Shown: piece by piece, positions 5,890 through 21,341 of the stretch
Position numbering within the stretch: position 1 is the stretch's first letter
How the letters are laid out: the number at the start of each line of letters is the position of its first letter
NCBI RefSeq assembly: GCF_017876575.1
Contig: NZ_JAGIOE010000001.1
Location: 992,001-1,056,000 of the forward strand
From: Paeniglutamicibacter psychrophenolicus
GTDB lineage: Bacteria > Actinomycetota > Actinomycetes > Actinomycetales > Micrococcaceae
Direction: 5' to 3'
DNA: 64,000 nt
Program-made: the position numbers and the translations under genes
Notes under the pieces: generated by a model
Databases searched by the model: none
What the model was told of the DNA's origin: nothing
Seen by the model: the letters and a program-made list of their open reading frames with translations, nothing else

Positions 5890-7977
5890 ATGACAACCAT
5901 TGAGAACCGCGATTTCTCGATCACTGTACTCGGCCGCACTCTCGAACATTTGGGAACTCAAATGTACAAGAGGAGAGATGTCGCCATCGCCGAGTTGGTG
6001 GCAAATGCTTGGGACGCCGGTGCTCAAAACGTGCATCTTTCAATACCACTTAAATCTGACTACAACCAAGCCTCGTCTAAAGTGATCGTTAAAGATGATG
6101 GCCAGGGCATGTCCCCTGACGAAGTCCAAGACAACTACCTGGTTATCGGACGAAATCGTCGATCTGCCGGCCAAGAGCCTCCAGGTAGCCGTCGTCCGAT
6201 GGGTAGAAAAGGCGTAGGGAAACTAGCTGGGTTCGGGCTCGGGACCCGCATGGATGTACTCACCGCAACACAGAATGCGGCCACGAGCTTAGCGCTCAAC
6301 GGCGCTGATTTGACGGAACGTGGTGGCAAAACGAAAAGGCTCGAGCTTCCAGGAACTGTAACGCTTCTGGATGAGGATGCTTCCACCACAGGAACTACTA
6401 TCACCCTGTCCACGCTGAAACACAAAACACCACCAGATATAGCCGGCCTGCATCAATCGTTAAGTCGGCGATTCAGTCGAACAGTCCTTGGTGAAATGAA
6501 GATCTTTATCAACGAGGAACCGCTGCAACCTTTCGAAGTTACGTTTACTAAAAGGGATCCTGCTGTGGGCGAGGACACCGCAACTCTCGAATGTGGCAAC
6601 AGTGTCACTTGGTGGGCAGGATTCAGTGACAAAGTCCTCTCAGCAGAGATGCAAGGGTTTACCATTCTGGTAAATGGAAAAACGGCGCAAGCACCAGCAT
6701 TCTTTTTTAACGTTGAAGCCACCGCAAGTGGACAGCACGGAACGAAGTATCTGACCGGTGTTATCGAAGCTGATTATCTGGACAATGGTACTGATGACGA
6801 ATCGGACCTGGTTTCGACCGATCGGCAAGACCTCGACTGGGATTCTGAGGCTACTGAGTCGTTAATGAAGTGGGGGCAGGCTCAGACCCGAAAACTATTA
6901 AGAGAACGTTTGGAAGATGGCGAACGGCAAGCGGTCGCGACGGCTGAATCGGATCCTGATTTGGCAGGTAGGCTCGCAAGATTGGATCCGACGTCACGAA
7001 AGCAAGCGAATAAGTTCATTATGACACTGGGTAGAACTGACGCGAATCCAGAGCGAGTCAGAGAACTTGCCGGGACCATTGTTCGAGCCTTTGAATATCG
7101 CCAGTTCCATGACTACATTGAGGAACTGGAAAAGGTTAGTGAAGATCCTGCGAGTCTGACAGAAGCTATCGGATATCTCAGTGGATGGCGTGTTCTGGAG
7201 AGCCGCGCAGTGCTTGAAGTGATCAAGGGCCGTCTCGGAATCGTCGACAAATTCTTCGATATGATTATAAAAGATAGCCCAGAAACCGCATCAAGCAAGA
7301 GCGACGACAATATGCATGATCTTTTGGCGCGGTACCCTTGGTTAATTAATCCAGACTGGCAGGTTTTGTCTGAAGAAAAAACAATCACCAATCAATTGAA
7401 AGAATGGAACGCAGAATTTGTTCCAGAGGCAGATAGGTCACGATACGATTTTCTGGCTCTCGAAGGCAATGGTGAAACGATAATCATCGAGATCAAGAGG
7501 GCCGGTCATGCTGTCAATATGGAGGACCTGATGCAGCTTGAAAAATACGTTTATAAACTTGAAGGTGCACGAGAGAAAATTCGAGGCGTTTTTATTACGG
7601 CAGATCGATATGCCGTATCTGAGCGAATCATAGACCGGTGGAACGAAAGGGCTGATATGGAGTTACTTACCTGGTCAACAGTCCAAAAAAGAACTTCTAG
7701 CCATTATCAACACTACGCCGCAGTATTGAACAGCGATATAGATGAAGACTCGTTCGACCGAAAGAAAAAAGAAGTCTCGCAGACTCGGCAAGTCCTCTCT
7801 ACTTCAACCCGGCGGACTCCTGAAGAACGTCGTTCGGGTGTAGGGCCCAGCGACATCGAGTTTCTCGAGCCAGCATTGGAATCACTGTACGATTCCCTGA
7901 ATCAAGAAACAAGCATTGTTGGTATCTCAGATACGTCTAATGAGACTATTTCGGATGCTTCATTGGGCACATCGTGA
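5890..7977 (+). CDS. GHKL ATPase fused to a C-terminal PDDEXK-type nuclease domain
   Basis: A 695-residue protein. The N-terminal third is a GHKL (Hsp90/MORC-like) ATPase: N-box AIAELVANAWDAG (Glu35, Asn39), the ATP-lid motif KDDGQGM (residues 68-74) and the glycine-rich G2 motif GRKGVGKLAGFGLG (105-118). A helical middle follows. The C-terminal region has YDF...IIIEIK, with Asp520 and Glu534-x-Lys536, which is a PDDEXK nuclease core similar in style to Shedu-like DUF4263 domains. The gene starts with ATG behind AAAGG and is intact. It is AT-richer than the flanking chromosome and faces the methyltransferase end of the DISARM-like operon. Such ATPase-nuclease fusions are typical of antiphage proteins. 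A defence role is inferred; substrate and named system are not known to me. Confidence 0.82.
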   Translation: MTTIENRDFSITVLGRTLEHLGTQMYKRRDVAIAELVANAWDAGAQNVHLSIPLKSDYNQASSKVIVKDDGQGMSPDEVQDNYLVIGRNRRSAGQEPPGSRRPMGRKGVGKLAGFGLGTRMDVLTATQNAATSLALNGADLTERGGKTKRLELPGTVTLLDEDASTTGTTITLSTLKHKTPPDIAGLHQSLSRRFSRTVLGEMKIFINEEPLQPFEVTFTKRDPAVGEDTATLECGNSVTWWAGFSDKVLSAEMQGFTILVNGKTAQAPAFFFNVEATASGQHGTKYLTGVIEADYLDNGTDDESDLVSTDRQDLDWDSEATESLMKWGQAQTRKLLRERLEDGERQAVATAESDPDLAGRLARLDPTSRKQANKFIMTLGRTDANPERVRELAGTIVRAFEYRQFHDYIEELEKVSEDPASLTEAIGYLSGWRVLESRAVLEVIKGRLGIVDKFFDMIIKDSPETASSKSDDNMHDLLARYPWLINPDWQVLSEEKTITNQLKEWNAEFVPEADRSRYDFLALEGNGETIIIEIKRAGHAVNMEDLMQLEKYVYKLEGAREKIRGVFITADRYAVSERIIDRWNERADMELLTWSTVQKRTSSHYQHYAAVLNSDIDEDSFDRKKKEVSQTRQVLSTSTRRTPEERRSGVGPSDIEFLEPALESLYDSLNQETSIVGISDTSNETISDASLGTS

Positions 7978-8451
7978 AGTAGATTTGTTCGCCCGAAATC
8001 TTTCGTAGGGTGCCAGCCAGCATGCCGTTGATTCCCTCTTTTCCCGGAATCGGCGGTTTGCCGGCTATCGGGGGCATATTGAGATGGCCGTATCGTTGGC
8101 CGGAACCCCGGGTGGTTTAGACGAGACTTCCGGTAGCAGGTGTGGGGCGATCGGGTAGCGGCGGTGGGCCAGGTGGCACCTGCCCCACACCAGAACATTC
8201 CAGACCTGCTATCAGAAGCCTCGGCTTTACACGGGTTCCATCGCACACGCACCGGAATGGTGAATCGTCACTGCCCCTTCCTCATCAGTGCCCTCCACGG
8301 TACGGATCCAGGTCTTTGCGTTGGCGTCAACTGCCTGGCCATGCCAGACCTTTTGCTCTTGAACCTGGAGACATGCACCCGGCTGCAGGGCATCCGCTCA
8401 TTAGTAAGATACCCGGATCTCGAAGTACCAGAAGGCGAGAAGAAACGTCGT
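7978..8451. other. Gene-free stretch between convergent defence genes
   Basis: No convincing gene is seen. On the minus strand around 8260-8345 an open stretch encodes a hydrophilic peptide (VWHGQAVDANAKTWIRTVEG) that looks like part of a former gene, but it is closed by stops on both sides and I cannot assign it. The GC content is closer to the host than that of the neighbouring ATPase gene. Confidence 0.4.
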
Positions 8452-9981
8452 CTAGACGGTGTTCGGCCGCAGATAGGCATGGATCGACTCCGCGATCTTT
8501 AATCCGAGCGGTACAGGAACTGCATTTCCAATCTGTTTGGCGATATCAGTCTTTGAGCCGCACCATCGAAAGTTGTCGGGGAATCCTTGGAGCTTGGCTG
8601 CTTCGTAGTGTGTTATTGGCCGGTTTTCAGTGGGGTGCAGGTATCGGCCCTTTTCTGGTTTGAAGAACTCGGTCCGAACTGTGACCGACGGTGCTCCAGC
8701 TCGCACGCGTCCCATAACATCTCCTGCGCCAGAATCATGGTTGTCCCATGACTTGGTCGACAAGTATTCAATAGTTGCGCGGCGGGTAGAAGCGTCGTCT
8801 TTGATCTGTACTCGAAACGTCTCTTTCTTCCTCCCTCCGGGTGAAACGGCATCGGTATCGCTGCCCGATTCATACGAGAGGACGCAGAAGCTGCTTGAAG
8901 TGGTAATGCTATCGACCACAAGCCTGTAGGTACCGAGAGGATCGAGTTCGCCTTGGGCATTCCTCGGCTTCCCTACCTTTTCTATAATAAATTCTGAACC
9001 ATCACTGAAACTGCATAGATATCGACCACGCAGGTTGTTGCGATTTCCGTTTGCGGGAATCGCTCGGTAACGGGCCAGTGAGATCGCTTCGGGACGTCTA
9101 CCGATATGTAGCTCGGTAGTTACGAATGGTCCCGTAACCTCCCCAGAAATTCCACGGACAGTCGTCAATCGCCCCTGTGGAAAGTCAGTCTTTTCAAGTT
9201 GCATTGTTGATGTTTCTTCAAACAGGTCGTCAACCGTCCGCCAAGGGAGTTGACTGGGCAAAGCCTCATGACCATCGCGCTCTTCACTCCTAGACCGAAC
9301 CCCTCGAGAGTGACTAGGGACCGGGTACTGCATGCGGTCATCGGAGAGATCAACGTTGGTGCGGATTCCAATGACGATAGCCCGTCGCCGAGCCTGAAGC
9401 GCGCCATAATCGGCTGCATTCAGAAGGTAGCGTCTAGCACGTTCTTGTTCAGTGTCTTCAGGGGTTGCTCCCGGCGCTTCGACGAGTCGATAGTTCATGA
9501 GGTCCCCCGTCCCAATTCGCTCCTGGAGGTCATCAAACTCGACCGAACGGACGAATCGATCGACGTTTTCGATAACGAAAACTTTAGGTTGCAGGACAGT
9601 TACGACCCGAATGAACTCTTGCCAAAGTTTGTTGCGCTCAACGCGGACCTTATTGCGGTTAAGGCCCGAAAACCCCTGGCACGGAGGGCCACCGACGACA
9701 ACGTCGACTTCGTCGGGTTCCCATTTTGGTTCCCAACCAACTATGTCCCCACAGAAAATCTCTGGTGGGTCAAAGCGGTGGGCACGATTCGACTCAGCTC
9801 CGAAGTTCATGGCATATGAAGCGGCAGCCGATGGCTCCCATTCAACCGCACCCAAGCTTCGGAATACTGGGGCTGTAGTGCCATCGGGCCGGTACTGATG
9901 AAACCCTTCAGTTAGACCACCGCAGCCAGAGAATAGATCGAGAACCGTAATCGGAGCCTCGACTGTATCCACTGATTTCAT
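8452..9981 (-). CDS. drmMII: DNA (cytosine-5-)-methyltransferase, DrmMII-like
   Basis: A 509-residue C5-cytosine methyltransferase. Motif I VLDLFSGCGGLTEGF (SAM binding) is at residues 13-27, motif IV GGPPCQGFS has the catalytic Cys101, motif VI is VIENVD (138-140 ENV), motif VIII is LQARRRAIVIG, and the C-terminal motifs AKLQGFPDNF and QIGNAVPVPLG close the fold. A long variable target-recognition region lies at about residues 230-430. It is the last gene of the minus-strand set and starts 141 bp after DrmB. No cognate restriction endonuclease of ordinary type II form is adjacent, so with DrmA/DrmB it most likely marks self DNA for a DISARM-like system. The target sequence cannot be read from the protein. 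The DrmMII name rests on context; a solitary Dcm-type enzyme is the alternative. Confidence 0.88.
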   Translation of the reverse strand: MKSVDTVEAPITVLDLFSGCGGLTEGFHQYRPDGTTAPVFRSLGAVEWEPSAAASYAMNFGAESNRAHRFDPPEIFCGDIVGWEPKWEPDEVDVVVGGPPCQGFSGLNRNKVRVERNKLWQEFIRVVTVLQPKVFVIENVDRFVRSVEFDDLQERIGTGDLMNYRLVEAPGATPEDTEQERARRYLLNAADYGALQARRRAIVIGIRTNVDLSDDRMQYPVPSHSRGVRSRSEERDGHEALPSQLPWRTVDDLFEETSTMQLEKTDFPQGRLTTVRGISGEVTGPFVTTELHIGRRPEAISLARYRAIPANGNRNNLRGRYLCSFSDGSEFIIEKVGKPRNAQGELDPLGTYRLVVDSITTSSSFCVLSYESGSDTDAVSPGGRKKETFRVQIKDDASTRRATIEYLSTKSWDNHDSGAGDVMGRVRAGAPSVTVRTEFFKPEKGRYLHPTENRPITHYEAAKLQGFPDNFRWCGSKTDIAKQIGNAVPVPLGLKIAESIHAYLRPNTV

Positions 9982-10122
9982 TGCCCTAGTCTATCCCGGC
10001 AGCACGATCAACCCGGGGCGCACGTCTGTGCTCGAGCTCTAACTCCGTGCGGACGCGGAAAGGTACTATTTCTCTTTTTGAACCCTATGGTTCTTGCCAG
10101 GGGCGGCAGTTGGTAACTCTAG

Positions 10123-11931
10123 TCATCTGTCCGTAGACCGGACTTCCTCCAGTACACCATCTAGCAGCCCGGGGACGCTGCTCCCACCAAGCACGAGCTG
10201 TCTGTCGAGAAGGCGATTTGCTGTTTCACATGATGTCTCGCTGATGAGGGAGCACCCGTGGCATGCAGAAAGGTTAAGGCTAGTTGCCCCTTGCCGGTCA
10301 CTCTCGATACAGACTGGATCGTTCGAGCAGACATCGGCATCGTCCAGGGCCGCCAGTAAAATTGGCACTAACTTATCCGGATCGCCGAGTCTGACGAGTC
10401 CTCCGAGCGTGCCCTGTGCATCACCGGCTGCCGTATAAATCAAGATGCCTGCCGTGCGGTCCGGCCGATCGGACTGCGCGTAGATTCGCTCTTGAAGAGA
10501 CGCCGAGGAGTATCCACTGGCGAATGCAAGACGACGAATCAAGAGGTGCGCGATCGTGTGCAGGGCCACATAGCGAGGCTCGGGAACGTCCAATCGCTGC
10601 GCCCATTGGGTTCTATTGCGCCGTTCTATGAGGATGCCGGCCCGGGCCTTAACCTCTGGCCTTTTCTCCCACTCGGTTAGGAACTGCTCATCGAAGCGCA
10701 GAAAAATCCCTTCCCCGTATACCTCGATTGCAGGGAATACCGGCCTTCGTTTCCCATCAATTGATAAGTCGGCGCTGATCAGGTCTGCTTCGGCTGTGTG
10801 GCGTCGAAAGCCTGTGAGGGCACGAACCTCACGTACCCTTCGGACTTGCCCAATGCTTGTCAGACGGGCTGACAAGGCTGGAGGAACACCTTGCTGGTCA
10901 CTGACGCGCCAACTATCAACGACAAAGTCTCCGTAACTTTGGTCACGGCCTGTTCTTGTCAGTTTCTTGAGGAAGGCCGCCCATTCGCCATCTTTGAGAT
11001 CGAGTAAGGCAGCGTCGGACGGTTCATCTACACCAGAGGCAACATTGAGTACCTCTTCAGGAGTCACGCCGAGTTCGTCAGCGATCCATCCGGCGACTAA
11101 ATGAGCCTGCGGACCACCGTTGTCAGCGACGACTTTCTCGAAAAACATATGGCCACGAATGGCATCGGCGGCCTCGGCCGAGCGTGGGAGTTCCTCGGGA
11201 ATATCAAGCGCCGAGATCCGTTCTGCAATGTAGTTTCCAGTTGCACCACGCTGTGTTGCTATCAGCGTGTGCTCGCATGCACTACCGGATTCCGGTTCCT
11301 GCCATGGTTGAACGCCCTTGCATCGGATACCATCACGACCGAGTGCTCCCTTTGTTACAAGATCGGAAAGAGGGCGTGACCGCTTGCAACCCCCGCATTC
11401 CACACGCAAAGATTTAAGTCCCTCACCGTGCTTTGCTGATCTGACAAATCGAAGCTCCTTATATGAGCGGCAGAAGCGCACGGACTCAGTGGCACCGGCA
11501 TCACGGCCGCGATGGGCCCACATGAACCAAGGGATGTCTTGGAGGTGGCTGCCCTTCTCACATACCGCGACATAGCGCATGGGAACGAGCGATCCACCGC
11601 AGAAGCACGTGTTCGTCCACTTACCTTTTTTCCGGCCTGTCTGTGCTGATAGTTTTGAGCACCGCTCACAGAATCTCCAGGCAGGGAAACGCCAGTAGAG
11701 CAGGCCGAGCGTGTCCTTGCCTGTGCGGCCTGAGTGGGTAGGGGCCTCACGCAGGACACTCTGACCGATCCGCTCCACGAGGCGTTCGCAGTGGATCTCT
11801 GGTGAAAACTTTTTGTCCCACCACGACGTGTCGGGAGCAATCAGGGATTCACCTCGTATATCGACGATTGCGCCGACGCCGAAAGGCGAGACCGTCTCGG
11901 ATAACCTCAGGTCATGCTTGATCCGTTCCAC
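10123..11931 (-). CDS. drmB: DrmB-like protein with DUF1998 domain
   Basis: About 602 residues from a GTG start at 11931, chosen because GAGGAGGGG lies 4 bases upstream and homology begins exactly there (ERIKHDLRLSETVSPFGVGA). The longer upstream frame is inside DrmA. Zinc-ribbon cysteines CERC (88, 91) and CFCGG (109, 111) are followed by more Cys pairs (CGGCKR). The C-terminal DUF1998 region contains ALHTIAHLLIRRLAFASG, GILIYTAAGDAQGTLGG and late cysteines (CSNDPVC, CHGC). This is the layout of DrmB, the DISARM partner of DrmA. It overlaps the DrmA stop by 20 bp, so translation is coupled. In DISARM, DrmAB forms a DNA-translocating complex that recognises incoming DNA; that role is transferred by family. 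Confidence 0.88.
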   Translation of the reverse strand: MERIKHDLRLSETVSPFGVGAIVDIRGESLIAPDTSWWDKKFSPEIHCERLVERIGQSVLREAPTHSGRTGKDTLGLLYWRFPAWRFCERCSKLSAQTGRKKGKWTNTCFCGGSLVPMRYVAVCEKGSHLQDIPWFMWAHRGRDAGATESVRFCRSYKELRFVRSAKHGEGLKSLRVECGGCKRSRPLSDLVTKGALGRDGIRCKGVQPWQEPESGSACEHTLIATQRGATGNYIAERISALDIPEELPRSAEAADAIRGHMFFEKVVADNGGPQAHLVAGWIADELGVTPEEVLNVASGVDEPSDAALLDLKDGEWAAFLKKLTRTGRDQSYGDFVVDSWRVSDQQGVPPALSARLTSIGQVRRVREVRALTGFRRHTAEADLISADLSIDGKRRPVFPAIEVYGEGIFLRFDEQFLTEWEKRPEVKARAGILIERRNRTQWAQRLDVPEPRYVALHTIAHLLIRRLAFASGYSSASLQERIYAQSDRPDRTAGILIYTAAGDAQGTLGGLVRLGDPDKLVPILLAALDDADVCSNDPVCIESDRQGATSLNLSACHGCSLISETSCETANRLLDRQLVLGGSSVPGLLDGVLEEVRSTDR

Positions 11932-14900
11932 TGGACCCCTCCTCGAAAGGTTCGCGTACTTCCACAGCAACGTTGGGTTCGACTGATCGCATTGAGTCGG
12001 CGACGAGCCACCCCTCACCTGACTGCCCAAAACGCTTGAGCAAGGCAACATCATCCTTGTCGTGACGGTCGTACAGTAGACGCTCACCTGACTCTCGGGA
12101 GTTCCGGGCACGTCGGTCCCAGTCGGTTAGAAGTGCTCGCATTCTTTCCTGTGTATCGCTAGACTCGATTGGTTCGGCGCGCTGCACAAGCCCAACGAAG
12201 CGTTCGACGAGTTCGTTGATGGACTCACTCTGTGCAACATTGTTCAGGTCAAATCGAACAGCAGCCTCATTATCGGAGAGATCGGATACCAGGTGTCGCG
12301 CAAGAATGATGAGGGCGCCCGAGAGTGAACGCTCGCGTGAGGCCAGAGACCACGGGGTCACGCTTGTTGGTTCGACGCTGCGATAAAGCGCCTCATGAAA
12401 CCCTCGGAATGTCTCGAAGTGGGATCGATCTCGCGCTCGGTTGGAGCGGAACAATGTTGTGACTATTCCTGGGATCTTGCCACGTCCGACACGGCTAGTA
12501 GCCTGGATATACTCCGAGGTGGTCTTGGGCTGTCCGACCATTAACATCAGAGCAAGGCGTGGGATATCGATACCCACGGAGAGCATGTTTGATGAGAGCA
12601 CGATGTCGACCGCTTGGTCGGAATCATCCGCACTGTGCCTGAGTTCGCGTAGAACCTTAGGCAACTCCTCCGGCCCGCGACGGCTGGTCAACTCAAGCAC
12701 TTTTTCAGCTCTGACGGTGCGGAGTTTGTATCCTAGCCGGTCAGCACGAGGTTCGAGCCGGCCGTTGACGTCGTCAACAACAAGCGTTCCGGTACGCCCG
12801 AGCTCGCGCAAGCTGTTGTGGTACATGACTGACGTCCAGTATGCATCACGTGCTGTCACAGAGTCGGGGTCTTGCTCAAGCACGAAGGGGATCTCAAGAA
12901 GTGGTGATGCTGCAGATACTGTCGCAGACATCTGCGACAGTGCTTGTGGCATCAGGCCGAGGTACAAGCGTCCCTCGCCGCTGCTCACTGGCCGGGAGAA
13001 AAACGTGCGGTCGTCATCGAGACCAGAAGGCGGGTAGAGTGCAACGTCGCGGCCGTACAGCCCCTGCACCTGCTCGTGCGAAGCTCTGATTGTCGCAGTG
13101 GACGCAATAATCTTGGGTGTTTGCCCACCTGCTGCGAGCAACATTTGAATGACCGTGTCGAAGACTGCAACTGTTGTTCCCAACGGCCCCGAAAGCAGAT
13201 GCAGTTCGTCTTGAATAATCATCGAGGGCTGGCTAAACGCAGTGTTTAGGCCCAACAACCGTCCCGCTTCGGGGCGGAATTGCAAGCGGGCGAACTTATC
13301 AACGGTCGCTAGCAAGATCGTTGGCGGGTTTTCGTAGAGTTCTTCATCCACGACGGCGACCGGTAGTTCATCGCGAAACTCGCAAGAATTACTGGTGCAG
13401 TGGATGACGACGTCGTGGCCGACAAGCCTAACGCCATACTCACTCAACTTTGAAGATCGCATCCGAGGTAACAGTTCCGTGCCACACCAAGGGCAACTCT
13501 CGATCTGGAACTGGTTGGCTTCCTCAGGACGCGCTGCTTTGTGGAGTCGTTCCAGTGCGGCCTTCGCATCACGTCGCGTTCCTGGCGTGACCTCGTTTCC
13601 GACCCAAAGACCGATCGTGAAGGGCGCCATCCCCTTGGTGCGCGCGTCACCGATCCGATCTGGACGTCGGAGCATCTCCATTGCGCAGACGAGTGAAGCT
13701 GCACGCTGGAACTGTTGGGCAGTTAACAAACGAAGGGTGTACCGAGTTAAGACCGCAGTTCCTCCACCCGCTGGCCCATCGACGATTCTGCGACGGAAGA
13801 TCTCTATCGCGGCGAGTGCGAGGTAGGCCTCGGTCTTCCCGCCACCGGTCGGGAACCAGATTAGATCGACGAGTTCACGCTCAGCATGGGTTTCGTCGAC
13901 AACGGACGTTAGAGAAACGAGCAAGAACCCGAGCTGGAACGGCCTCCAACGAGGCTCAGGCGGATCGTCACCCCGGCTTGCCACCGTTTGGTGCATTTGA
14001 AGCCGCATCGCAGACATGGCTAAGGCGAATGCGGAACGGAGCTTGGACTGCTCGGGTTGCCGTAAGAGGGCAGTGCTCTCGCGCATCCGGCTGAGGGCCA
14101 CCTCTGATCGCGCGACTATCCGCCCGGCAATTGAAACATCAGAACCGAACGAACTCACCCGAGCTGATTCAGTTGTTACCCAGCCCCCAAATGCTTCGAC
14201 AAAAGCGTCCATAGAAGCGAGAACTTCGTCTGGTGACGAATCTAGACGCTCGAGGTGGCTCAGCATTAGGGCCCGCGCTTCAACGGACGGCTCCTCGAAG
14301 GATGTTGTCTCGACGGCAGGGATCACGAAAGACGGAACTGGGTCTAGTCGCACCTGGGCGCAACGTCCAACATCGGTAAGATCCCAGTCAGCAGCCATGC
14401 CGTGGCCAACGGCGTATACCTGACGGTTTCGGTATCGTAAGCGTAGCTCAGCCGACTCTTCGTCGAGATCGAATGCTTTGGTCGTGTCATACTCCAGAAA
14501 CGATCCGTTTTCCTGAGGAGTGACTGAGAGGGCTACCTGGTACAGCATGTTGATCGCATCGAGGCGGACGTCGCCGGCCGAAGTCGCTAGAACACGCACA
14601 TGGACAGTCACGAGGTACGCGTCACCGAGCACCCTCCACCGCGATCCGATTTGAATCGGAATATCACCTGCTACAGCCTGGCTGTGTGGCTCCTCCCGAG
14701 AGAGTTCGAGACCCTCGAAATGAAATGGAACTCGTCTCCAACGCGGGGGACCATCTCCACCCACTACAACATATGTCGCGCCTGTGAGGTCACACCGGAT
14801 GGTGGAGCTGTCGGTGACAAAAGAAATCGCCACCGACGAAGGCTTCCAGTCCTCTGCAATGGGAATTCCGGCACTTACCTCCTCCACTTCCCCGTTCGAA

Positions 14901-15112
14901 GCAACTGCCGCGTCGACATCGACTTCGTTGGCGTCCATGGAAACAACTCCGTCGTCCGTGACTGGCATGGAGACGTCACGTGGAAAGAGCATACCGACGG
15001 CGTACTGCAAATTTGGCAGATTCTCGAGGACCTCGTCGTCTCCTCCGTCTGGCCCAACGTACGCCGATCGAAGATGCTCGAGGACCCGACTTTGTACTTG
15101 GGTGAGGGTCAT
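11912..15112 (-). CDS. drmA: DrmA-like SF2 helicase of DISARM
   Basis: A 1066-residue helicase. A long N-terminal region of beta-rich sequence (1-400) precedes the Walker A motif FPTGGGKTEAY (421-427). A zinc-binding pair CPWCG (540-543) and later cysteines (572, 577) sit between the motifs. The DExH box is IIQDELHLLSG (634-638), motif III is ASTATIRAS, and motif VI is QATSRVGRG in the second RecA lobe. Length and domain order agree with DrmA, the helicase conserved in all DISARM types. Its start codon overlaps the stop of the NERD-helicase gene (ATGA), and DrmB overlaps its end, so all are read from one message. AT-richer codon use than the flanks supports transfer. Confidence 0.9.
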   Translation of the reverse strand: MTLTQVQSRVLEHLRSAYVGPDGGDDEVLENLPNLQYAVGMLFPRDVSMPVTDDGVVSMDANEVDVDAAVASNGEVEEVSAGIPIAEDWKPSSVAISFVTDSSTIRCDLTGATYVVVGGDGPPRWRRVPFHFEGLELSREEPHSQAVAGDIPIQIGSRWRVLGDAYLVTVHVRVLATSAGDVRLDAINMLYQVALSVTPQENGSFLEYDTTKAFDLDEESAELRLRYRNRQVYAVGHGMAADWDLTDVGRCAQVRLDPVPSFVIPAVETTSFEEPSVEARALMLSHLERLDSSPDEVLASMDAFVEAFGGWVTTESARVSSFGSDVSIAGRIVARSEVALSRMRESTALLRQPEQSKLRSAFALAMSAMRLQMHQTVASRGDDPPEPRWRPFQLGFLLVSLTSVVDETHAERELVDLIWFPTGGGKTEAYLALAAIEIFRRRIVDGPAGGGTAVLTRYTLRLLTAQQFQRAASLVCAMEMLRRPDRIGDARTKGMAPFTIGLWVGNEVTPGTRRDAKAALERLHKAARPEEANQFQIESCPWCGTELLPRMRSSKLSEYGVRLVGHDVVIHCTSNSCEFRDELPVAVVDEELYENPPTILLATVDKFARLQFRPEAGRLLGLNTAFSQPSMIIQDELHLLSGPLGTTVAVFDTVIQMLLAAGGQTPKIIASTATIRASHEQVQGLYGRDVALYPPSGLDDDRTFFSRPVSSGEGRLYLGLMPQALSQMSATVSAASPLLEIPFVLEQDPDSVTARDAYWTSVMYHNSLRELGRTGTLVVDDVNGRLEPRADRLGYKLRTVRAEKVLELTSRRGPEELPKVLRELRHSADDSDQAVDIVLSSNMLSVGIDIPRLALMLMVGQPKTTSEYIQATSRVGRGKIPGIVTTLFRSNRARDRSHFETFRGFHEALYRSVEPTSVTPWSLASRERSLSGALIILARHLVSDLSDNEAAVRFDLNNVAQSESINELVERFVGLVQRAEPIESSDTQERMRALLTDWDRRARNSRESGERLLYDRHDKDDVALLKRFGQSGEGWLVADSMRSVEPNVAVEVREPFEEGSSGTDQA

Positions 15113-16629
15113 CTGGCCGCCATCTTTTGCTGTATGAGTTTCTGGAGACGTCGCCTGTCATCTTTGGACACCAAAATATGAAGCGAGACTCGTGCTCGAG
15201 TAACAGCGACATAGAAGGCTGCAGCGCCAGCGCTGTCGAGCGAATTGGGTAGGCCGCATACGACGACGTGCTCAGCCTCAAGCCCTTTGGCGAACCTTGG
15301 GCTGGTGAAGACGAAACCATCAACGCTTTTCGTTGGGGGCCTGTCAGAAGCCGGGTCGATGATCCAGATGCCGTCCGGGGAGACACCTCCACCGACTAGC
15401 TGTCTGGCGACGTCTTCTCCGTCAGCTCCAGTTACCCGACTGGATGTCGTGTGCCAGTGGACTTTTTCGCCATGCACGATTCCAGGATCGCCAACATCAG
15501 CACCGAGATATTCCTGGACGATGTGCACGATCGCTCGCGTATTCCGCACGTTAAGATCAAGGTCGACGGCGATGCCTTCTTCTGCAACTAGCGCGGCTAC
15601 ATCCTCGTCGTAGTGACCGTCAACGTGAGCCTGGTTGTTCGGGTCGAGGAACATACGCCAACGCCCGCCCGTTCGCCCTCCAACTAGTACCGAGTCAATT
15701 CGGTCCATGGCATCAGCAGTCATCATGTCCTGCGCTTCATCGACCAACACCACGTCGTATTGCCCCGCCGTACAGAGGTCATCGAACGGAACCACATCCA
15801 CGGGCAAACTCTCCAAATGCGGGGCGAAATACCCTGCAAGAGCGGGGGACTTGAACGTGACCAGGACAGAACGCCCCTGTTCCGCCTCTTGCTTGGCAGC
15901 CTCAACCAACACCAACGACTTTCCGGTGCCCGCGCCACCGTAGACCAGAACACGCTGGTTCCGCGCTAGCGCGGCTAAAACACGTGCCTGACCAGCCGTT
16001 GCGCGGTTCTGTTCCTCAATCACGGCTCCTCGTTGCGCATCGATAACAGGCATGCGCGTAAACTCGCCGAACAGTCGGACCCTCAAGTCGTCCATCCGAG
16101 CAAGCTTCTGCTTGCTTGGAGCTTTTTGCGCCTCGCTCGCGACTGCGTCAAGGACCGTCGCGATACTGGTGGATGTCATGTCGTCACGGGCGAGCCAGTG
16201 CGTAGGGAGCCAACCGACTGCTTCTGGGGGCGCAACAATGTCGGGAGTAACCACGACAGCCTCGTGGGCGAACCACCCGATCCCCTGCTCCTTGAGAATG
16301 TCCTTAAGCGCGTATGCCGCAGAGCGCGCTTGCTCCATGGGCGATGTTGCGAGCTTATGCCAGTCCCCGCGCCGGTCAACTGTGTACCAAACCCCAAGGT
16401 GCTTGCGCACGCCCCCGCCTTTGACCTCCACTACAATCACGATCCCGCGCCACAGGATAACGAAGTCTGCCTCGGCCTGCTGCTTGTATGAGTGCGACCG
16501 AAGATCAACCGAATAGAAAGCAACGGCGTCAGGGTCGGTATCTACATCGCGTAGGAGTCGGGCGAATGCCCTTTCGCCCGGGCTCACTGCCTGTTGCTCG
16601 ATGTCTGCCAACGTCGGAACCAGTATCAT
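15109..16629 (-). CDS. NERD-domain nuclease / UvrD-like helicase fusion
   Basis: A 506-residue protein. The N-terminal NERD (nuclease-related) domain has the PDDEXK-like pattern Asp55 in AEADFVILW and Glu68-Val-Lys70 in VVEVKGG. The second half is an SF1-type helicase or DUF2075-like ATPase: Walker A YGGAGTGKSLV (231-238), Walker B VLVDEAQDM (296-301), an arginine-containing LNVRNTRAI segment and the UvrD C-terminal signature FYVAVTRARVSLHIL. It overlaps both neighbours by 4 bp (ATGA at each end), so it is firmly part of the operon. NERD-helicases are widespread and sometimes occur in defence loci, but they are not a standard DISARM component. Here it may supply the nuclease function that DrmC gives in typical DISARM; this is inference. 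Confidence 0.85.
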   Translation of the reverse strand: MILVPTLADIEQQAVSPGERAFARLLRDVDTDPDAVAFYSVDLRSHSYKQQAEADFVILWRGIVIVVEVKGGGVRKHLGVWYTVDRRGDWHKLATSPMEQARSAAYALKDILKEQGIGWFAHEAVVVTPDIVAPPEAVGWLPTHWLARDDMTSTSIATVLDAVASEAQKAPSKQKLARMDDLRVRLFGEFTRMPVIDAQRGAVIEEQNRATAGQARVLAALARNQRVLVYGGAGTGKSLVLVEAAKQEAEQGRSVLVTFKSPALAGYFAPHLESLPVDVVPFDDLCTAGQYDVVLVDEAQDMMTADAMDRIDSVLVGGRTGGRWRMFLDPNNQAHVDGHYDEDVAALVAEEGIAVDLDLNVRNTRAIVHIVQEYLGADVGDPGIVHGEKVHWHTTSSRVTGADGEDVARQLVGGGVSPDGIWIIDPASDRPPTKSVDGFVFTSPRFAKGLEAEHVVVCGLPNSLDSAGAAAFYVAVTRARVSLHILVSKDDRRRLQKLIQQKMAAR

Positions 16630-19600
16630 CCGAGGTGCTCCTTCCAGAGGTCTGTATATTCGTGGTACCCGAGGAAATCATTCATGGCCCCCCAATTGTC
16701 AGAGACATCAACAATGAGGCACTCTTCTTTGCCACCATTTTCCGGACCGCGCAGTCCTCTACCGGCCATCTGGATATACGCGCCGGGGCTGAAGGTGGGG
16801 CGTGCAATATACAAGGCGCGAACACCCGGCGCATCAAATCCCTGTACCAACAAGTCGCAGTTGGCGAGCACTTTGATCTCTCCGTCCTGGAACTGTTTGA
16901 TTACGTTCCGCCGTTCCTGACGCCCGGTCTGGCCACTTAGGGAAGCTGCTTTCACTCCGCGATATCGCAATGACGCGGCGAGTACCTGAGCAGACAACAC
17001 ACTTGGTGTGAAAACTAGGATCGGCCACTCCGGATCCTGACTCAGGATGTGTTCCACCAGAATCCGCATACGCTGTTCGTTGCGACCGATGCGTTCATAT
17101 ACGTTACGGTCGATTAGACGACTGGACTGAATAGAGCTGCGTTCCGCATCTTTGAGCTCAACATCGACGCCTGACGGAAGCACCTCATGCCGGACACTCG
17201 CGAGAACGCCTAGATTGACTAGTTGCCGGTAAGAGTCGGATTCAAATGCCGTGAGCCGATTTGTTCCAAACCGCGAGACCAGTTCTTTGGTACCGCTATG
17301 GTCGCCCGCTCGGCCCTTGAACGGGGTTGCTGAAAGACCTACTAGCGGACGTTCCCAGTTATGCCCGTCGACCTTAAGCCATCGCAAGATCGCGGTGTAG
17401 CGTGTCGATCCGCCCGCCCGGTGTGCTTCATCGATAAAGACAGCGGTCGGCCGGCTCAACCACTCATATTCGGGTCGGCCCATGACCGCTTCAATCTTGG
17501 CGTCGGTTGCAACCATAACTGAAAGCCCGGTGTCAGGTTTGTGGACAATATTGGTGTCCCATAGACGACCGATAGTCAGCGGACGCTCATCGCCAAGGTA
17601 CCGCCAGACTGACTCAAAGGTTTGCACTGCCTGTTCACATAGTTCCGCAGACTGGGCGATCCACAGGATCGTGCCTGACAAGACTTCGTCGACGAACAGC
17701 CTTAGCACTGTCTCAGTCGCTACACGCGTCTTGCCCGCTCCCGTGGGCAATTCGACCATGCCCTTCTGAGCAGCGCCTTCTTCGGATGGCTGTGTCAGAA
17801 CAGTCCGCAAGTCTTCGCCAATTTTTTTCTGGTAGCTATGCAACTTGTTGAGGCGAACAGCGCCGGGGACTACAAACTCCTGCAAGCGTCTTTCAGTTCG
17901 CTGGCCAGCGAACTCGGTGCCGAAGCCCATCTTGCGCACCCAGGAAATCGCTGCTGGTAATCCGGCCCAAGCCGCAGGGACATCGGAGAACCCCTCCTCT
18001 CGAAAACGATCCGCAAGGATAATGAGTGTGTCGGAGCCGTAGACGGTAAGGAACAGCTCCGCGACAGAGGTATGGTCATCGACGATGCCTTGTGCCTCAA
18101 GTGCAGTCCAAAGGCCGGTCGGCAGCGCATCCCGCAGATCGTCGGGCCCAATGTAAAGGTCCAAGCGATCAGCATCCGAATCGATCGAGTGCGCCTCCTG
18201 ACGAAGTAGCTCTAATCGATGGTCGAGCCCAGCCTTGAGTACGGCGGAGAGCTCTGAATTATCGAGACGAAGGCCGAATGCTTCATTCACAAATCTGAGG
18301 ATCCGCACCTCATCAGCGTCGCTCCTGACCACTAACTCAGAGCCGTCGAGGTACCAGTCCATGGGTTGGTCTTCAACACCCTCTTCGGTCGTGACTCGCT
18401 TGGCAATCTGGAGTGCTCGGATGACCTTGGAGGACCCCAGCCGTATACCGAACGCGTTACGTAGCCCAGTGTAGATATCAAGAATTCGCTGGGAGTCTTG
18501 GTTCCCCTCGATGACCATGGAGAACGAAAAGCTATCTTCAAACCGGCAACAACCAACCACTTCGACCATATCTACGACTTGCTCCGGGGCGACGCGCAGA
18601 TATGGGCGCTGGCGGGTGCGAAGGAAATCTTCCTGTTCGTCGGTCGTTGCGAGGTAGACAGAAGAAGGCTCGTGCGCTTCAATCGCTTGTTTGACTCGCG
18701 CTGGTATCGTCACCGGCTTTTCTCCGGAGAGCCCAATTTTGCTCGCTGTGAGCACAAACTCCACCAGCGTGTCATCATCGTCTACCCGCGGGAAGATATC
18801 TCCCTCGAGCATTTCACGGAGGACGCGAGCGGGAACCTTATCGAGTTCGTCCGGGAGATCCAGTGCATTCAGCGCTTGGTGTGGTCCCTTATATAGCGGC
18901 AGCAAACCATCGAATCGAACCAGCGATGGCGCCACGACTTCGCTTACGCGACGGTAGCCACGGCTGGTATTCAATACCCCCACTTGCTCAGTTGCCCACC
19001 TCGCAGGAGACATGACCGCGAAGGTGCGCCCCGTGTCCGTTTCCTCCACAACCATTTTCTCTTCGCCGATTGAAAGCAGGGATACCGTCCACTTCTCGCG
19101 AACTTGCGGTGATGCATTAGCATCACGGAGCATGAAGAGAACTGAGAATGGGCCGGGGCCTTCAGCGGTGCTTAAATCGAAAGACTTGATCGGCCGCTCA
19201 TCAAGACCAATTTGACCATTGAGCAGGCTCAACGTCGCTTGTATAAACGATGCGAATTCTGATTCGTCCTCGAGCGCAAAGTTCTTCACGGGCTCCCGCA
19301 CCACACCCAATTTGTATGCGACATCAGGCACACAGCGATGACGGTCGAGGAGCTTCGAAGCGGCCTCTGCAGGCAGTACAACGTCGATGTCAAGTACCTG
19401 CTGTGGCCAGGCCCAACCGCCGTCACGCGTTGGTACCTTGACAGACGCCGAGGATGAAAGGATTGCCCTAGAAGCCACTGGCGTGGCAACCGACAAGACA
19501 GCGTCCCAGAGCGTGGTGAGATCGGCATCACTCGGTTCTCTTGGGAGAGTTGAGAGTCGCGCGTTAAGGATTGATTCAGGGTCAAGGTCACGGAATCCAA

Positions 19601-21341
19601 TAGAGCGGAGAAGTGGTTCGATCCCCTCTTCGGTGAGGAACTCGACAGACACGAAGACAGCTCCGTCAACCTCCAGACCTGTCTCGCGATGAAGGAACAC
19701 AACGTCTTTGTCGACTAGCGCCCGCATTCCTTCCGTTGTCGGAATAACCTTGGCCGTGCGAATGTCCTCAAGGCTAAGGTTCTTAGTTACAGTGCGGAAC
19801 GCGTTTGCCGATGAGGTTGTATCTGTTCCGTCTGACCACTCACGAAGCCAAGTGAGAAGGCCCCTCTTCGGCATTCGTTCAAGAGCCACTCTCGTGTCTC
19901 TAGCGCTCGGTTCAAGGCCCTTTTCCATTGCCGCGAGCAGGAGATCGCGCAGTCGGCTTGTACGTGTCGGAGTGGAGTAGCAGCGCCAATGCGGTACATC
20001 GGCTCCGGTGTTTGGCGACAGAATCCACCCGCGGTGTACGAGCATCTCGAAGCGGACACTCAAGTCAAGCGGCCGTAGCGCTACTCCGTTGCGAAGCACT
20101 GCGTTTGCATCCGGAATGTAATCGCCCGCGCCAGCAAGCTGCAAGATATGCGCTGCCAAGATATCGTCGCCGAAACCATGGCTTTCTTGGCCACGGCCAC
20201 GTGATGGCATGTAGTCCAGATGAGCCGCGGGGTCTTCCAGCGTTCGAACGAAAGGCAGTAGATCAACGAATATCTCGGCAAGAGACCGAAGTATCTCTCG
20301 GTTGTATTCATTTCTGAGTAGGGTCGTGCGGTCGTCATTTACGCTCCATGGGGCGTTGAACAAGGCCGATGCTGATGTCGTGTCCTGCAGCCGGAAATAC
20401 GACCAAAACTGGCCGATTCTCATGGTGTTTCCCTCAGCGGGAACCGCTACGGTGACCTTGACTTCCTTACGCGATACGGCTTCTCCGACTAGTTTGCGGG
20501 ATTCAATCGATGGAGCGTGCATGCGACTTCTTACGATCCAGTCTTTACCTTCGCCATCGGGGCCTTCGATCCTAAGTTTCCCGTCGCCTAAATCCCGTGA
20601 AACATGGCTCGTCTCGAAGGGATCAGTACCTACGACGCGGAGTTTCACTTTGCGGACAGCCCCCACAAACAGCAAGAACTCTGAGCTAAAGTTCTCGATT
20701 TCTGACCGTAGGTGTTGGAGGTTGGAAATTTCTGGCAGTTTCACGATCGTCGATGCCCACACCGCCAACTCTGCAAGAATTGGATCCTGTGGGATAGCCT
20801 GGGCTGCTTCGATGACATTGGGCGTGCGCATGATCGGAAGACGCTGGGTGTTCGCAATTCCAGCTATTGCGTGGCGAGCCTGTGGAGAATTAAACTCGAA
20901 TGAGACGGACTTGCTAAACACTTGTGGAGATTCGGTCACCGCCAGAACAGACTTGAACCCGAGACCGAATCGTCCAATTTCATCTCCACGTTTGCCGCTC
21001 AAATATGCGTGCGTGATGGTGACTAGGCCGGCCTTCGTGAATGGTTTCCCCGAGTTTGCACAGTAGAGAGTGCGAGAGGCCAGATCGAGTACGATCTCGA
21101 TTCTTCCTATGTCGATTGGCTCCGAGTCTTCAGCACTCGCAATCGCGTCGGCTGCGTTCTGGGCAAGTTCGAGAAGCGTGCGTTGCGCATATCCACCAGT
21201 CCGGATGGACTCCTCGTGGTTGGCATGCTCAGCTATCAAAGTAGGTTTCACTTCGTAGGCGGCGATTGCACTTGCGAACTGCTCGTTGATCTCCCGCACC
21301 AATGCATCGTCAGATACCCATCCGGCGACCGATTTAATCAT
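16626..21341 (-). CDS. Sacsin-like GHKL ATPase fused to SF2 DEAD/DEAH helicase
   Basis: A 1571-residue protein from an ATG at 21341 behind GGGGGAA; a TTG 12 bases further upstream is possible but lies inside that ribosome-binding site. The N-terminal 200 residues form a sacsin/HATPase_c_3-like module: N-box LLELAQNAADA, a CANSGKPFT lid motif and the GRFGLGFKSVL glycine motif. A long middle without recognised domains spans about 250-1150. The C-terminal helicase has Walker A ELPTGAGKTRVA (PTGAGKT from about 1199), FIDEAHRAGG (about 1304), GLSATPFKGR and motif VI QMAGRGLRG (about 1524). It is the first gene of the coupled four-gene run ending in DrmB. Such fusions are known as orphan large proteins near defence genes; coupling to NERD-helicase and DrmAB is unusual. 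It may sense or remodel foreign DNA or DNA-protein complexes. Confidence 0.82.
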   Translation of the reverse strand: MIKSVAGWVSDDALVREINEQFASAIAAYEVKPTLIAEHANHEESIRTGGYAQRTLLELAQNAADAIASAEDSEPIDIGRIEIVLDLASRTLYCANSGKPFTKAGLVTITHAYLSGKRGDEIGRFGLGFKSVLAVTESPQVFSKSVSFEFNSPQARHAIAGIANTQRLPIMRTPNVIEAAQAIPQDPILAELAVWASTIVKLPEISNLQHLRSEIENFSSEFLLFVGAVRKVKLRVVGTDPFETSHVSRDLGDGKLRIEGPDGEGKDWIVRSRMHAPSIESRKLVGEAVSRKEVKVTVAVPAEGNTMRIGQFWSYFRLQDTTSASALFNAPWSVNDDRTTLLRNEYNREILRSLAEIFVDLLPFVRTLEDPAAHLDYMPSRGRGQESHGFGDDILAAHILQLAGAGDYIPDANAVLRNGVALRPLDLSVRFEMLVHRGWILSPNTGADVPHWRCYSTPTRTSRLRDLLLAAMEKGLEPSARDTRVALERMPKRGLLTWLREWSDGTDTTSSANAFRTVTKNLSLEDIRTAKVIPTTEGMRALVDKDVVFLHRETGLEVDGAVFVSVEFLTEEGIEPLLRSIGFRDLDPESILNARLSTLPREPSDADLTTLWDAVLSVATPVASRAILSSSASVKVPTRDGGWAWPQQVLDIDVVLPAEAASKLLDRHRCVPDVAYKLGVVREPVKNFALEDESEFASFIQATLSLLNGQIGLDERPIKSFDLSTAEGPGPFSVLFMLRDANASPQVREKWTVSLLSIGEEKMVVEETDTGRTFAVMSPARWATEQVGVLNTSRGYRRVSEVVAPSLVRFDGLLPLYKGPHQALNALDLPDELDKVPARVLREMLEGDIFPRVDDDDTLVEFVLTASKIGLSGEKPVTIPARVKQAIEAHEPSSVYLATTDEQEDFLRTRQRPYLRVAPEQVVDMVEVVGCCRFEDSFSFSMVIEGNQDSQRILDIYTGLRNAFGIRLGSSKVIRALQIAKRVTTEEGVEDQPMDWYLDGSELVVRSDADEVRILRFVNEAFGLRLDNSELSAVLKAGLDHRLELLRQEAHSIDSDADRLDLYIGPDDLRDALPTGLWTALEAQGIVDDHTSVAELFLTVYGSDTLIILADRFREEGFSDVPAAWAGLPAAISWVRKMGFGTEFAGQRTERRLQEFVVPGAVRLNKLHSYQKKIGEDLRTVLTQPSEEGAAQKGMVELPTGAGKTRVATETVLRLFVDEVLSGTILWIAQSAELCEQAVQTFESVWRYLGDERPLTIGRLWDTNIVHKPDTGLSVMVATDAKIEAVMGRPEYEWLSRPTAVFIDEAHRAGGSTRYTAILRWLKVDGHNWERPLVGLSATPFKGRAGDHSGTKELVSRFGTNRLTAFESDSYRQLVNLGVLASVRHEVLPSGVDVELKDAERSSIQSSRLIDRNVYERIGRNEQRMRILVEHILSQDPEWPILVFTPSVLSAQVLAASLRYRGVKAASLSGQTGRQERRNVIKQFQDGEIKVLANCDLLVQGFDAPGVRALYIARPTFSPGAYIQMAGRGLRGPENGGKEECLIVDVSDNWGAMNDFLGYHEYTDLWKEHLG

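Follow-up and report, generated by a model that had tools for sequence, protein, structure and literature searches.

Does an operon that joins the DISARM proteins DrmA and DrmB to two large helicases of other kinds belong to one of the described classes of this defence system, or to a system of another composition? DISARM class 1 consists of DrmD, DrmMI, DrmA, DrmB and DrmC, and class 2 of DrmE, DrmMII, DrmA, DrmB and DrmC. The operon lies in a 64,000-nt stretch of Paeniglutamicibacter psychrophenolicus (assembly GCF_017876575.1, contig NZ_JAGIOE010000001.1, positions 992,001-1,056,000, forward strand), the whole of which is called the window here.

Gene layout

The genes, in window coordinates, are the following:

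16626-21341, minus strand: GHKL-helicase (sacsin/Hsp90-like ATPase and SF2 helicase), first gene of the operon, 1571 aa, ATG start
15109-16629, minus strand: NERD-helicase (NERD PD-(D/E)XK nuclease domain and SF1 UvrD/Dna2/SLFN-like helicase), 506 aa
11912-15112, minus strand: DrmA, YprA-type SF2 helicase, short form, 1066 aa
10123-11931, minus strand: DrmB, DUF1998/MZB zinc protein, GTG start
8452-9981, minus strand: C5-cytosine DNA methyltransferase, 509 aa
5890-7977, plus strand: BbrUII/HgiDII-like GHKL ATPase and NucS-like nuclease, convergent to the methyltransferase

The ORF coordinates agree with the first-pass annotation, which had described five minus-strand genes, the first four of them overlapping: the GHKL-helicase and NERD-helicase genes share 4 bp, those of the NERD-helicase and DrmA 4 bp and those of DrmA and DrmB 20 bp, and a gap of 141 bp separates DrmB from the methyltransferase. 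Upstream of the GHKL-helicase ATG lies GGGGGAAC. The surroundings of the operon are a lower-GC stretch with two further restriction-modification (R-M) or defence-like genes; for the left edge of this island, comparison with three congeners gave no left-flank match.

The DrmAB core

DISARM of either class requires DrmA and a separate DrmB, and the operon has both, each aligning over most of its length to the solved DISARM DrmAB. DrmA matches the PADLOC DrmA model (2.1e-192) and the solved DISARM DrmA 7s9v (1.3e-186), this alignment starting at window residue 17 and Serratia residue 147, and reaches 805 bits against NCBIfam DrmAS, below the equivalog cut-off of 950. DrmB scores 413 bits against NCBIfam DrmB_fam (cut-off 240) and matches the solved DrmB 7s9v_B (7.5e-76). 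In the DrmA tree the window protein (type A) forms a clade of its own, and a DrmA search of phages gave no match. According to passages of PMC9142583, the solved DISARM DrmAB binds 5'-tailed ssDNA, and 5mC lowers its ATPase activity.

Recurrence of the cassette

Of the 39 loci that a DrmA search yielded, 29 have the order GHKL-helicase - NERD-helicase - DrmA - DrmB, at 54-78% protein identity; since the search seed was the window's own protein, this locus set is biased to close kin. Overlaps of 4, 4 and 20 bp are kept in 27, 28 and 23 of the 29 loci, respectively, and the four proteins diverge together (Spearman 0.74-0.82 against permutation maxima of 0.23-0.34), although shared descent alone would also yield such values. 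With a GHKL-helicase profile built from the DrmA-fetched loci, the full-length gene proved patchy in the family, being present in 11 of 197 genomes, and all 11 full-length copies stand in a row with DrmAB; in a sample of the phylum this holds for three of four GHKL-helicases, the fourth lying about 29 kb from DrmA. Chance adjacency is ruled out by the recurring order and the 11 full-length family copies beside DrmAB. Of the five-gene order looked for in other genomes, the first four genes recur as a unit, whereas the methyltransferase is accessory to them and variable in place. The cassette is present in many actinobacterial genera, Streptomyces included, which makes it testable in laboratory strains.

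In a second lineage (type B) the DrmAB pair is of another branch and is accompanied by a UvrD-like helicase and a related ATPase-helicase. A single origin of the GHKL-helicase/DrmA pairing, with types A and B and locus L088 as one clade, is rejected by an AU test (p 4.4e-9) made on a quick tree with some long branches, L088 having been added after inspection of the tree.

DISARM components not found

Searches of the 42 type A and B stretches for DrmC, DrmD, DrmE and the methyltransferase of class 1 gave no match; of the 12 class 1 control loci, 11 showed at least one of these proteins (6 of 7 without the five query-source loci). The PLD nuclease DrmC was seen in 0 of 42 stretches but in 10 of the 12 class 1 loci, or in 6 of 8 when query-source loci are set aside, and was not found in the window's own genome, where the search had no positive control; the SNF2 helicase DrmD and the adenine methyltransferase DrmMI were likewise found in 0 of 42, as was DrmE, for which there was a single query and no positive control of its own. 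The NCBIfam DrmE model matched neither a window protein nor any in the own genome, and a DrmE search of plasmids gave no match. In agreement with the first-pass annotation, neither DrmC nor DrmE was found by model and query searches of the window, its genome and the 42 stretches.

The one DrmE locus of comparable order, L090, reads DrmE - NERD-helicase - DrmA - DrmB; in the window the GHKL-helicase has the position of DrmE and, judged from gene order, fits that slot. PADLOC also missed the DrmE of L090, so that its silence on DrmE is uninformative. It could be argued that the locus is plain class 2 DISARM, without new function, whose DrmE has diverged and whose DrmC has been lost, as the trio of NERD-helicase, DrmA and DrmB follows DrmE in L090 and a 5mC methyltransferase is present, as in class 2. 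This is unlikely, however, in view of the negative DrmE searches of the own genome and the 42 stretches and of the GHKL-helicase itself against the NCBIfam model, of its recognised sacsin and SF2 helicase domains, and of the separate clade of the type A DrmA.

The two helicases

The GHKL-helicase comprises a GHKL ATPase (residues ~1-400), a long middle region and a RadD-like SF2 helicase (~1160-1560). The ATPase is of the sacsin type (NCBIfam NF047352, 70 bits, cut-off 50), and the SF2 part matches Pfam ResIII and Helicase_C and is nearest to RadD (6jde, 1.4e-22); the PADLOC BrxHI/BrxHII models gave a single weak match, to the helicase part (2.4e-5). When an AlphaFold2 model of residues 1-1171 (pLDDT 84) was searched with Foldseek, all of the matches listed (50 of 514) belonged to the Hsp90 family, with TM values on the query of 0.11-0.20, so low that the model would support the fold family only. 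E58-N62-D65, GRFGLGFKSV and the helicase motifs are invariant in a 17-row alignment. GHKL ATPases carry an Asp in the DxGxG box, but this residue is not conserved in the same alignment, which has N-[S/A/G]-G instead, and it is missing from the aligned sacsin stretch as well; ATP use by the GHKL domain is thus putative.

The NERD-helicase has a NERD domain (Pfam 2.6e-10), and D55, E68-x-K70, Q100, GGxGTGK and DExQD are invariant in a 22-row alignment; Foldseek ranks 1-7 for its model (pLDDT 82) are SLFN11, SLFN14 and Dna2. In the actinobacterial sample, 10 of the 12 DISARM-branch loci outside class 1 have an SF1 helicase, with or without NERD, next to DrmAB; none of the 12 class 1 loci does. 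This wider spread rules out that the NERD-helicase is specific to the GHKL-helicase subtype, and L090, which has both proteins, rules out that it is DrmE. The suggestion that the two helicases may take the places of DrmE and DrmC is supported by gene order in its first half, but the NERD-helicase is no simple substitute for DrmC, because it is found together with DrmE too. The UvrD-like helicase of type B has no NERD domain, and no PD-(D/E)XK motif was seen by eye at its C-terminus in a 7-row alignment, so the nuclease is not constant across lineages.

The RadD-like SF2 part and the structural nearness of the SF1 part to Dna2 are also consistent with a DNA-repair module of RadD-like, Dna2-like and YprA-type helicases that is not anti-phage, and YprA/MrfA relatives have repair roles according to passages of PMC12458937. 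Such a role is nevertheless quite improbable, since DrmA matches the DrmA/DrmB pair of separate genes of DISARM, the full-length gene is patchy in the family, and the operon has a lower-GC setting, restriction-like neighbours and a link to a 5mC methyltransferase.

The methyltransferase and its neighbour

The methyltransferase matches Pfam DNA_methylase (2.4e-48) and the PADLOC models DruM2 (3e-77) and DrmMII (8.5e-37), and is a frequent but movable partner of the cassette. A strong match (>200 bits) is present in 14 of the 29 close loci, 10 times downstream and twice upstream on the same strand, and twice on the opposite strand. Of the other 15, which have no strong match in the stretch, five give lower scores (32-59 bits), and some of the stretches end at contig ends; methyl-marking may thus not be universal. 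The facing nuclease (5890-7977), a gene that the first-pass annotation does not list here, scores 238 bits against NF050001, below the equivalog cut-off of 550, and has similar genes in L006 and L028; it is possibly an accessory or separate restriction enzyme, which the methyltransferase may also serve.

An alternative of some weight, though a doubtful one, is that the four genes act alone, sensing DNA structure (ssDNA ends, replication intermediates), and that the methyltransferase and this nuclease together make up a neighbouring type II R-M system. The inconstant presence, place and strand of the methyltransferase argue for it, as do the restriction-enzyme-like gene facing it, genome G550, in which a methyltransferase relative lies beside an HgiDII-like gene, and the discrimination by DNA structure reported in passages of PMC9142583. 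Against it, the methyltransferase family tracks sacsin-GHKL: among the 197 family genomes the two have 13 and 14 carriers and share 11 (Fisher 8e-14, kinship ignored), whereas the HgiDII-like gene occurs in 3 of 197; moreover, in four of the six type B loci that the family sample contains (L127-L130) the methyltransferase immediately precedes the GHKL-helicase on the same strand.

Proposed mechanism and significance

The first-pass annotation's reading of a DISARM-like system of distinct composition is sustained, as the cassette recurs as an operon and DrmC, DrmD and DrmE were not found. Its two large DrmAB partners, the GHKL-helicase and the NERD-helicase, were not found described for DISARM; among openly licensed PMC papers, no paper describing the gene set was found, and the PADLOC name TmtA does not occur in the ten papers listed. 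The predicted function, probable on balance, is that of a DISARM-like anti-phage system of a composition for which no name was found, and the cassette is taken as a new variant whose putative activity is most likely the destruction of foreign DNA that lacks methylation. Like its Serratia counterpart, DrmAB would load on 5'-tailed ssDNA when phage DNA enters or replicates; host DNA would escape through its own structure and, in loci with a methyltransferase, through 5mC. The NERD-SF1 enzyme may unwind and cut the engaged strand, replacing the missing PLD nuclease DrmC, and the GHKL-SF2 protein could be an ATP-driven clamp or remodeller licensing the nuclease; phage DNA would be lost directly, in a non-abortive outcome.

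More tentatively, the loci might form a separate DISARM-like class, in which a Dna2-like NERD helicase-nuclease, acting on DNA that DrmAB has opened, is under the control of a sacsin/Hsp90-type ATPase clamp fused to a RadD-like helicase. Such a class would have arisen two or more times, on separate DrmAB branches (A and B), and the sacsin-GHKL sensor with its 5mC methyltransferase would be a module exchanged between MZA-type and DISARM-like systems.

As to the effector step of DISARM, the nuclease DrmC is reported as non-essential in passages of PMC9142583, where "often missing" is, in our reading, apparently said of DrmC too. A branch in which DrmC was not found, with SF1 helicases beside DrmAB, several of them with conserved NERD residues, offers a candidate effector, and Hsp90/sacsin-type ATPases would be tied to DNA-targeting immunity.

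Comparison with known systems

The operon resembles class 2 DISARM in its separate and adjacent DrmA and DrmB, the nearby 5mC methyltransferase and a first-gene slot like that of DrmE in L090, but GHKL-SF2 and NERD-SF1 helicases stand where no DrmE or DrmC was found, and its DrmA is under the DrmAS cut-off. With class 1 it shares the DrmAB core; it differs in that neither DrmD nor a PLD nuclease nor the methyltransferase of class 1 was found, and in the separate clade of its DrmA, which has no match to Serratia DrmA residues 1-146, the N-terminal region in which passages of PMC12458937 place an EVE-like domain of class 1 DrmA. A YprA-type helicase is common to the operon and to ARMADA, Druantia and TALON, as the same source describes them in part, and TALON also has a NERD nuclease; what differs is that DrmA and DrmB are split here, as they are in DISARM. 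Neither a TOTE gene nor a full homologue of BrxHII or PglX was recognised in the operon, the PADLOC comparison being one of protein models. MZA-type loci (PADLOC MzaB, MzaC and MzaD), represented by L132, by profile, and plasmid p2MP, by annotation, have GHKL proteins without the SF2 helicase and no DrmAB seen in those stretches, but resemble the operon in having a sacsin-GHKL protein related to its own and a 5mC methyltransferase of the same family.

Operon and its genomic surroundings

All five minus-strand genes reported in the first-pass annotation were recovered by an ORF check of the window, and every part of the operon was identified by family searches.

Features of the window, the operon in its 5' to 3' order
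21341-16626, minus strand: GHKL-helicase (sacsin/Hsp90-like ATPase fused to a RadD-like SF2 helicase), first gene
16629-15109, minus strand: NERD-helicase (NERD nuclease and SF1 helicase), second gene
15112-11912, minus strand: DrmA, third gene
11931-10123, minus strand: DrmB, fourth gene
9981-8452, minus strand: 5mC methyltransferase, 141 bp 3' of DrmB
5890-7977, plus strand: BbrUII/HgiDII-like GHKL ATPase and NucS-like nuclease, in the low-GC stretch, convergent with the methyltransferase and absent from the first-pass list
21998-22870, same strand as the operon: DUF3883/NOV_C protein, about 657 bp 5' of the operon, in the low-GC stretch

The last of these proteins is an almost full-length match to the PADLOC candidate PDC-S36 (1.9e-83). 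The GC content is 0.46-0.58 at about 4-23 kb, against 0.60-0.71 elsewhere in the window, and nucleotide similarity to three congeners stops sharply at 23001, beside a gene that we take to be glycerate-kinase-like. About 23000 is likely the right edge of an island, whose left edge was not found.

Conservation of the four-gene unit

Scanning species genomes with peptides of the window's own DrmA as seeds yielded 39 loci (L-numbers), a set that these seeds bias toward close kin. The first four genes occur in the same order and on the same strand in 29 of them (L002-L029 and L038; L007, counted here, ends inside DrmB), in many actinobacterial genera, including Nakamurella, Oerskovia, Nocardioides, Micromonospora, Streptomyces, Nonomuraea, Nocardia, Curtobacterium, Microbacterium, Geodermatophilus, Demequina and Amycolatopsis. 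On the 3.2-kb fragment L030 the NERD-helicase and DrmA are present, and none of the nine distant loci shows the full four-gene set. With start codons picked by a length rule, 4-bp overlaps are found at the GHKL/NERD junction in 27/29 loci and at the NERD/DrmA junction in 28/29, and DrmA overlaps DrmB by 20 bp in 23/29 and by 14 bp in 4. The distance matrices of the four proteins correlate at 0.74-0.82 (29 rows, the window and 28 loci, without L007), a co-divergence that vertical descent alone could explain.

The reverse search used a GHKL-helicase profile of 17 rows, taken from DrmA-fetched loci, at an E-value of 1e-30. It matched 14 of 197 same-family genomes (G-numbers), 11 of them with full-length proteins, and all 11, the window included, stand in a row with DrmA-DrmB with one SF1 helicase between. 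The other three (G421, G545, G550) have a GHKL protein lacking the helicase half, and the next genes encode about 515, 330 and 1030 aa; those of G545, the only ones profiled, are MzaB-, MzaD- and Z1/MzaC-like, and in G545 and G421 a 5mC methyltransferase lies directly upstream of the GHKL gene. The phylum sample gave matches in 5/396 genomes, four full-length and one helicase-only: the full-length gene is in a row with DrmA in G000, G177 and G182 and about 29 kb from it on the same contig in G278, and the helicase-only copy of G128 adjoins DrmAB on the opposite strand.

Two lineages

The window's arrangement (type A) is shared by four family loci (L122-L125). Type B, in which the order is GHKL-helicase, UvrD/GajB-like SF1 helicase, DrmA and DrmB, occurs at six loci of the family sample (L126-L131) and at two of the phylum sample (L086, L089); L086 has an extra NERD-helicase 3' of DrmB. 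A DrmA tree of 62 rows, obtained by a quick search and with some long branches, places type A in a single clade (SH-aLRT 100), class 1 DISARM in another (99) and type B with L088 in a third (99). Joining A, B and L088, the latter added after tree inspection, in one clade carries a penalty of 98.6 log units (AU p 4.4e-9), which suggests repeated origin or exchange of the GHKL-helicase/DrmA pairing.

SF1 helicases beside DrmAB

An SF1 helicase of the NERD type, the UvrD type or a short form adjoins DrmAB in 10/12 non-class-1 loci of the actinobacterial DISARM branch (the exceptions are L087 and L096), in 0/12 class 1 loci, in 0/5 loci of the outer YprA group and in 5/6 loci inspected from other phyla (L034 has none); the SF1 profile rows came partly from the same loci (L086, L091, L093, L031, L032, L035). 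Annotated plasmids fit this pattern, judged on nine regions that the authors chose among the matches listed, 30 of 85 matching records. Annotated NERD or UvrD genes adjoin DrmAB on plasmids of Azospirillum, Tsukamurella, Rhizobium and Rhodococcus, and Pfam identifies two 'AAA family ATPase' genes of a Deinococcus plasmid as NERD-SF1 and SF1 helicases. On Streptomyces and Photobacterium plasmids the adjoining genes are known by annotation alone ('DNA helicase' or 'AAA family ATPase'), and no such helicase gene was seen in the annotated Lactiplantibacillus region or Nostoc class 1 locus.

In L031, L039, L095 and L097 the slot before NERD-helicase, DrmA and DrmB is filled by differing proteins, 512-1090 aa long and without a match in Pfam or PADLOC, that of L095 giving a weak partial DrmE match, which suggests that the first component is exchangeable.

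The 5mC methyltransferase and its partners

The first-pass annotation had asked whether the five-gene order recurs; the first four genes do so, but the methyltransferase (METHYLTRANSFERASE) has a relative above 200 bits in only 14 of the 29 close loci, and its place varies (10 downstream and 2 upstream on the operon strand, 2 on the opposite strand). Weaker relatives (32-59 bits) occur in L012, L016, L017, L026 and L038, and all these counts are lower bounds, since some close loci are incomplete. Vsr mismatch-repair genes, the usual partners of 5mC methyltransferases, form one cluster present in 8/30 loci, with Pfam support for L006 and L018.

In the 197 family genomes, a methyltransferase relative is found in 13, a sacsin-GHKL protein in 14 and both in 11 (Fisher 8e-14, kinship ignored). 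Sorted by coordinates, the methyltransferase of the 12 genomes other than the window's own adjoins a full GHKL-helicase operon in seven and a Mza-type GHKL gene in two. In G550 it adjoins an HgiDII-like gene, with that genome's GHKL gene about 13 kb away, and in G441 and G539 it is near neither. The HgiDII-like gene is rarer (3/197).

Missing DISARM components

DrmC and DrmE, taken to be absent in the first-pass annotation, were found neither among the low-GC-stretch proteins nor in 42 type A and B stretches (29 loci, the window, 4 and 8). Family searches with the seven proteins of the low-GC stretch gave no match to DrmC, DrmD or DrmE; the silence of PADLOC on DrmE is uninformative, because PADLOC also missed the DrmE of L090. 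Queries for DrmC (five), DrmD (three), DrmMI (two) and DrmE (one, with no separate positive control) had zero matches in the 42 stretches. At least one component query was positive in 11/12 class 1 control loci (L078 was negative); five of the 12 had themselves supplied queries, and 6 of the 7 others were positive.

Proteins and proposed mechanism

The alignment of the window DrmA with Serratia DrmA begins at residue 147 of the latter, and the window DrmB aligns with its Serratia counterpart. In PMC9142583, Serratia DrmAB is described as binding 5'-tailed ssDNA, being autoinhibited by a trigger loop and showing lower stimulation by 5mC DNA. At the trigger-loop position the window DrmA has just a shorter acidic stretch, so autoinhibition is not extended to it. 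Residues D55, E68, K70 and Q100 of the NERD-helicase and both its Walker motifs are kept in 22/22 rows, and its model (pLDDT 82) most resembles SLFN11, SLFN14 and Dna2. The GHKL protein conserves E58, N62, D65 and the GRFGLGFKSV box, and its model (residues 1-1171, pLDDT 84) matches Hsp90 at low TM; the SF2 half is nearest to RadD. Together, the DrmAB alignments, the Serratia data, the conserved motifs and the models point to a product that would be a DrmAB-loaded, ATP-gated helicase-nuclease machine. Its weakest step is that the GHKL part would act as a clamp.

Comparison with known systems

No paper with the four-gene set was found in the openly licensed PMC literature, and the words GHKL, sacsin and cytosine are absent from the main text of PMC12458937.

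In three MZA-like loci, unlike the window operon, a sacsin-GHKL protein without SF2 helicase has a 5mC methyltransferase on one side and MZA-like genes on the other.

MZA-like loci
L132, 6882-17227: by profile
L134, 7450-17731: by gene length only
L136, Arthrobacter sp. 68b plasmid p2MP (typed as mobilizable), 7182-17386: by annotation (ATP-binding, PD-(D/E)XK and Z1 proteins)

On two alphaproteobacterial plasmids (L137, 9692-14079; L138, 9554-13978), a helicase like the SF2 half, an ATP-binding protein and a PLD-family protein stand in a row, near DUF4007, PAPS-reductase-like and cysteine desulfurase genes, which are presumably phosphorothioation-type. In the archaeal L034 (Cenarchaeum MAG, 6000-17440), GHKL proteins and an SF2 helicase are encoded separately alongside DrmA and DrmB; these may be the parts of the window operon in unfused form.

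The core of the window operon would work like that of DISARM, but DrmC, DrmD and DrmE, features of classes 1 and 2, were not found in the operon, which is therefore termed DISARM-like and neither class 1 nor class 2.
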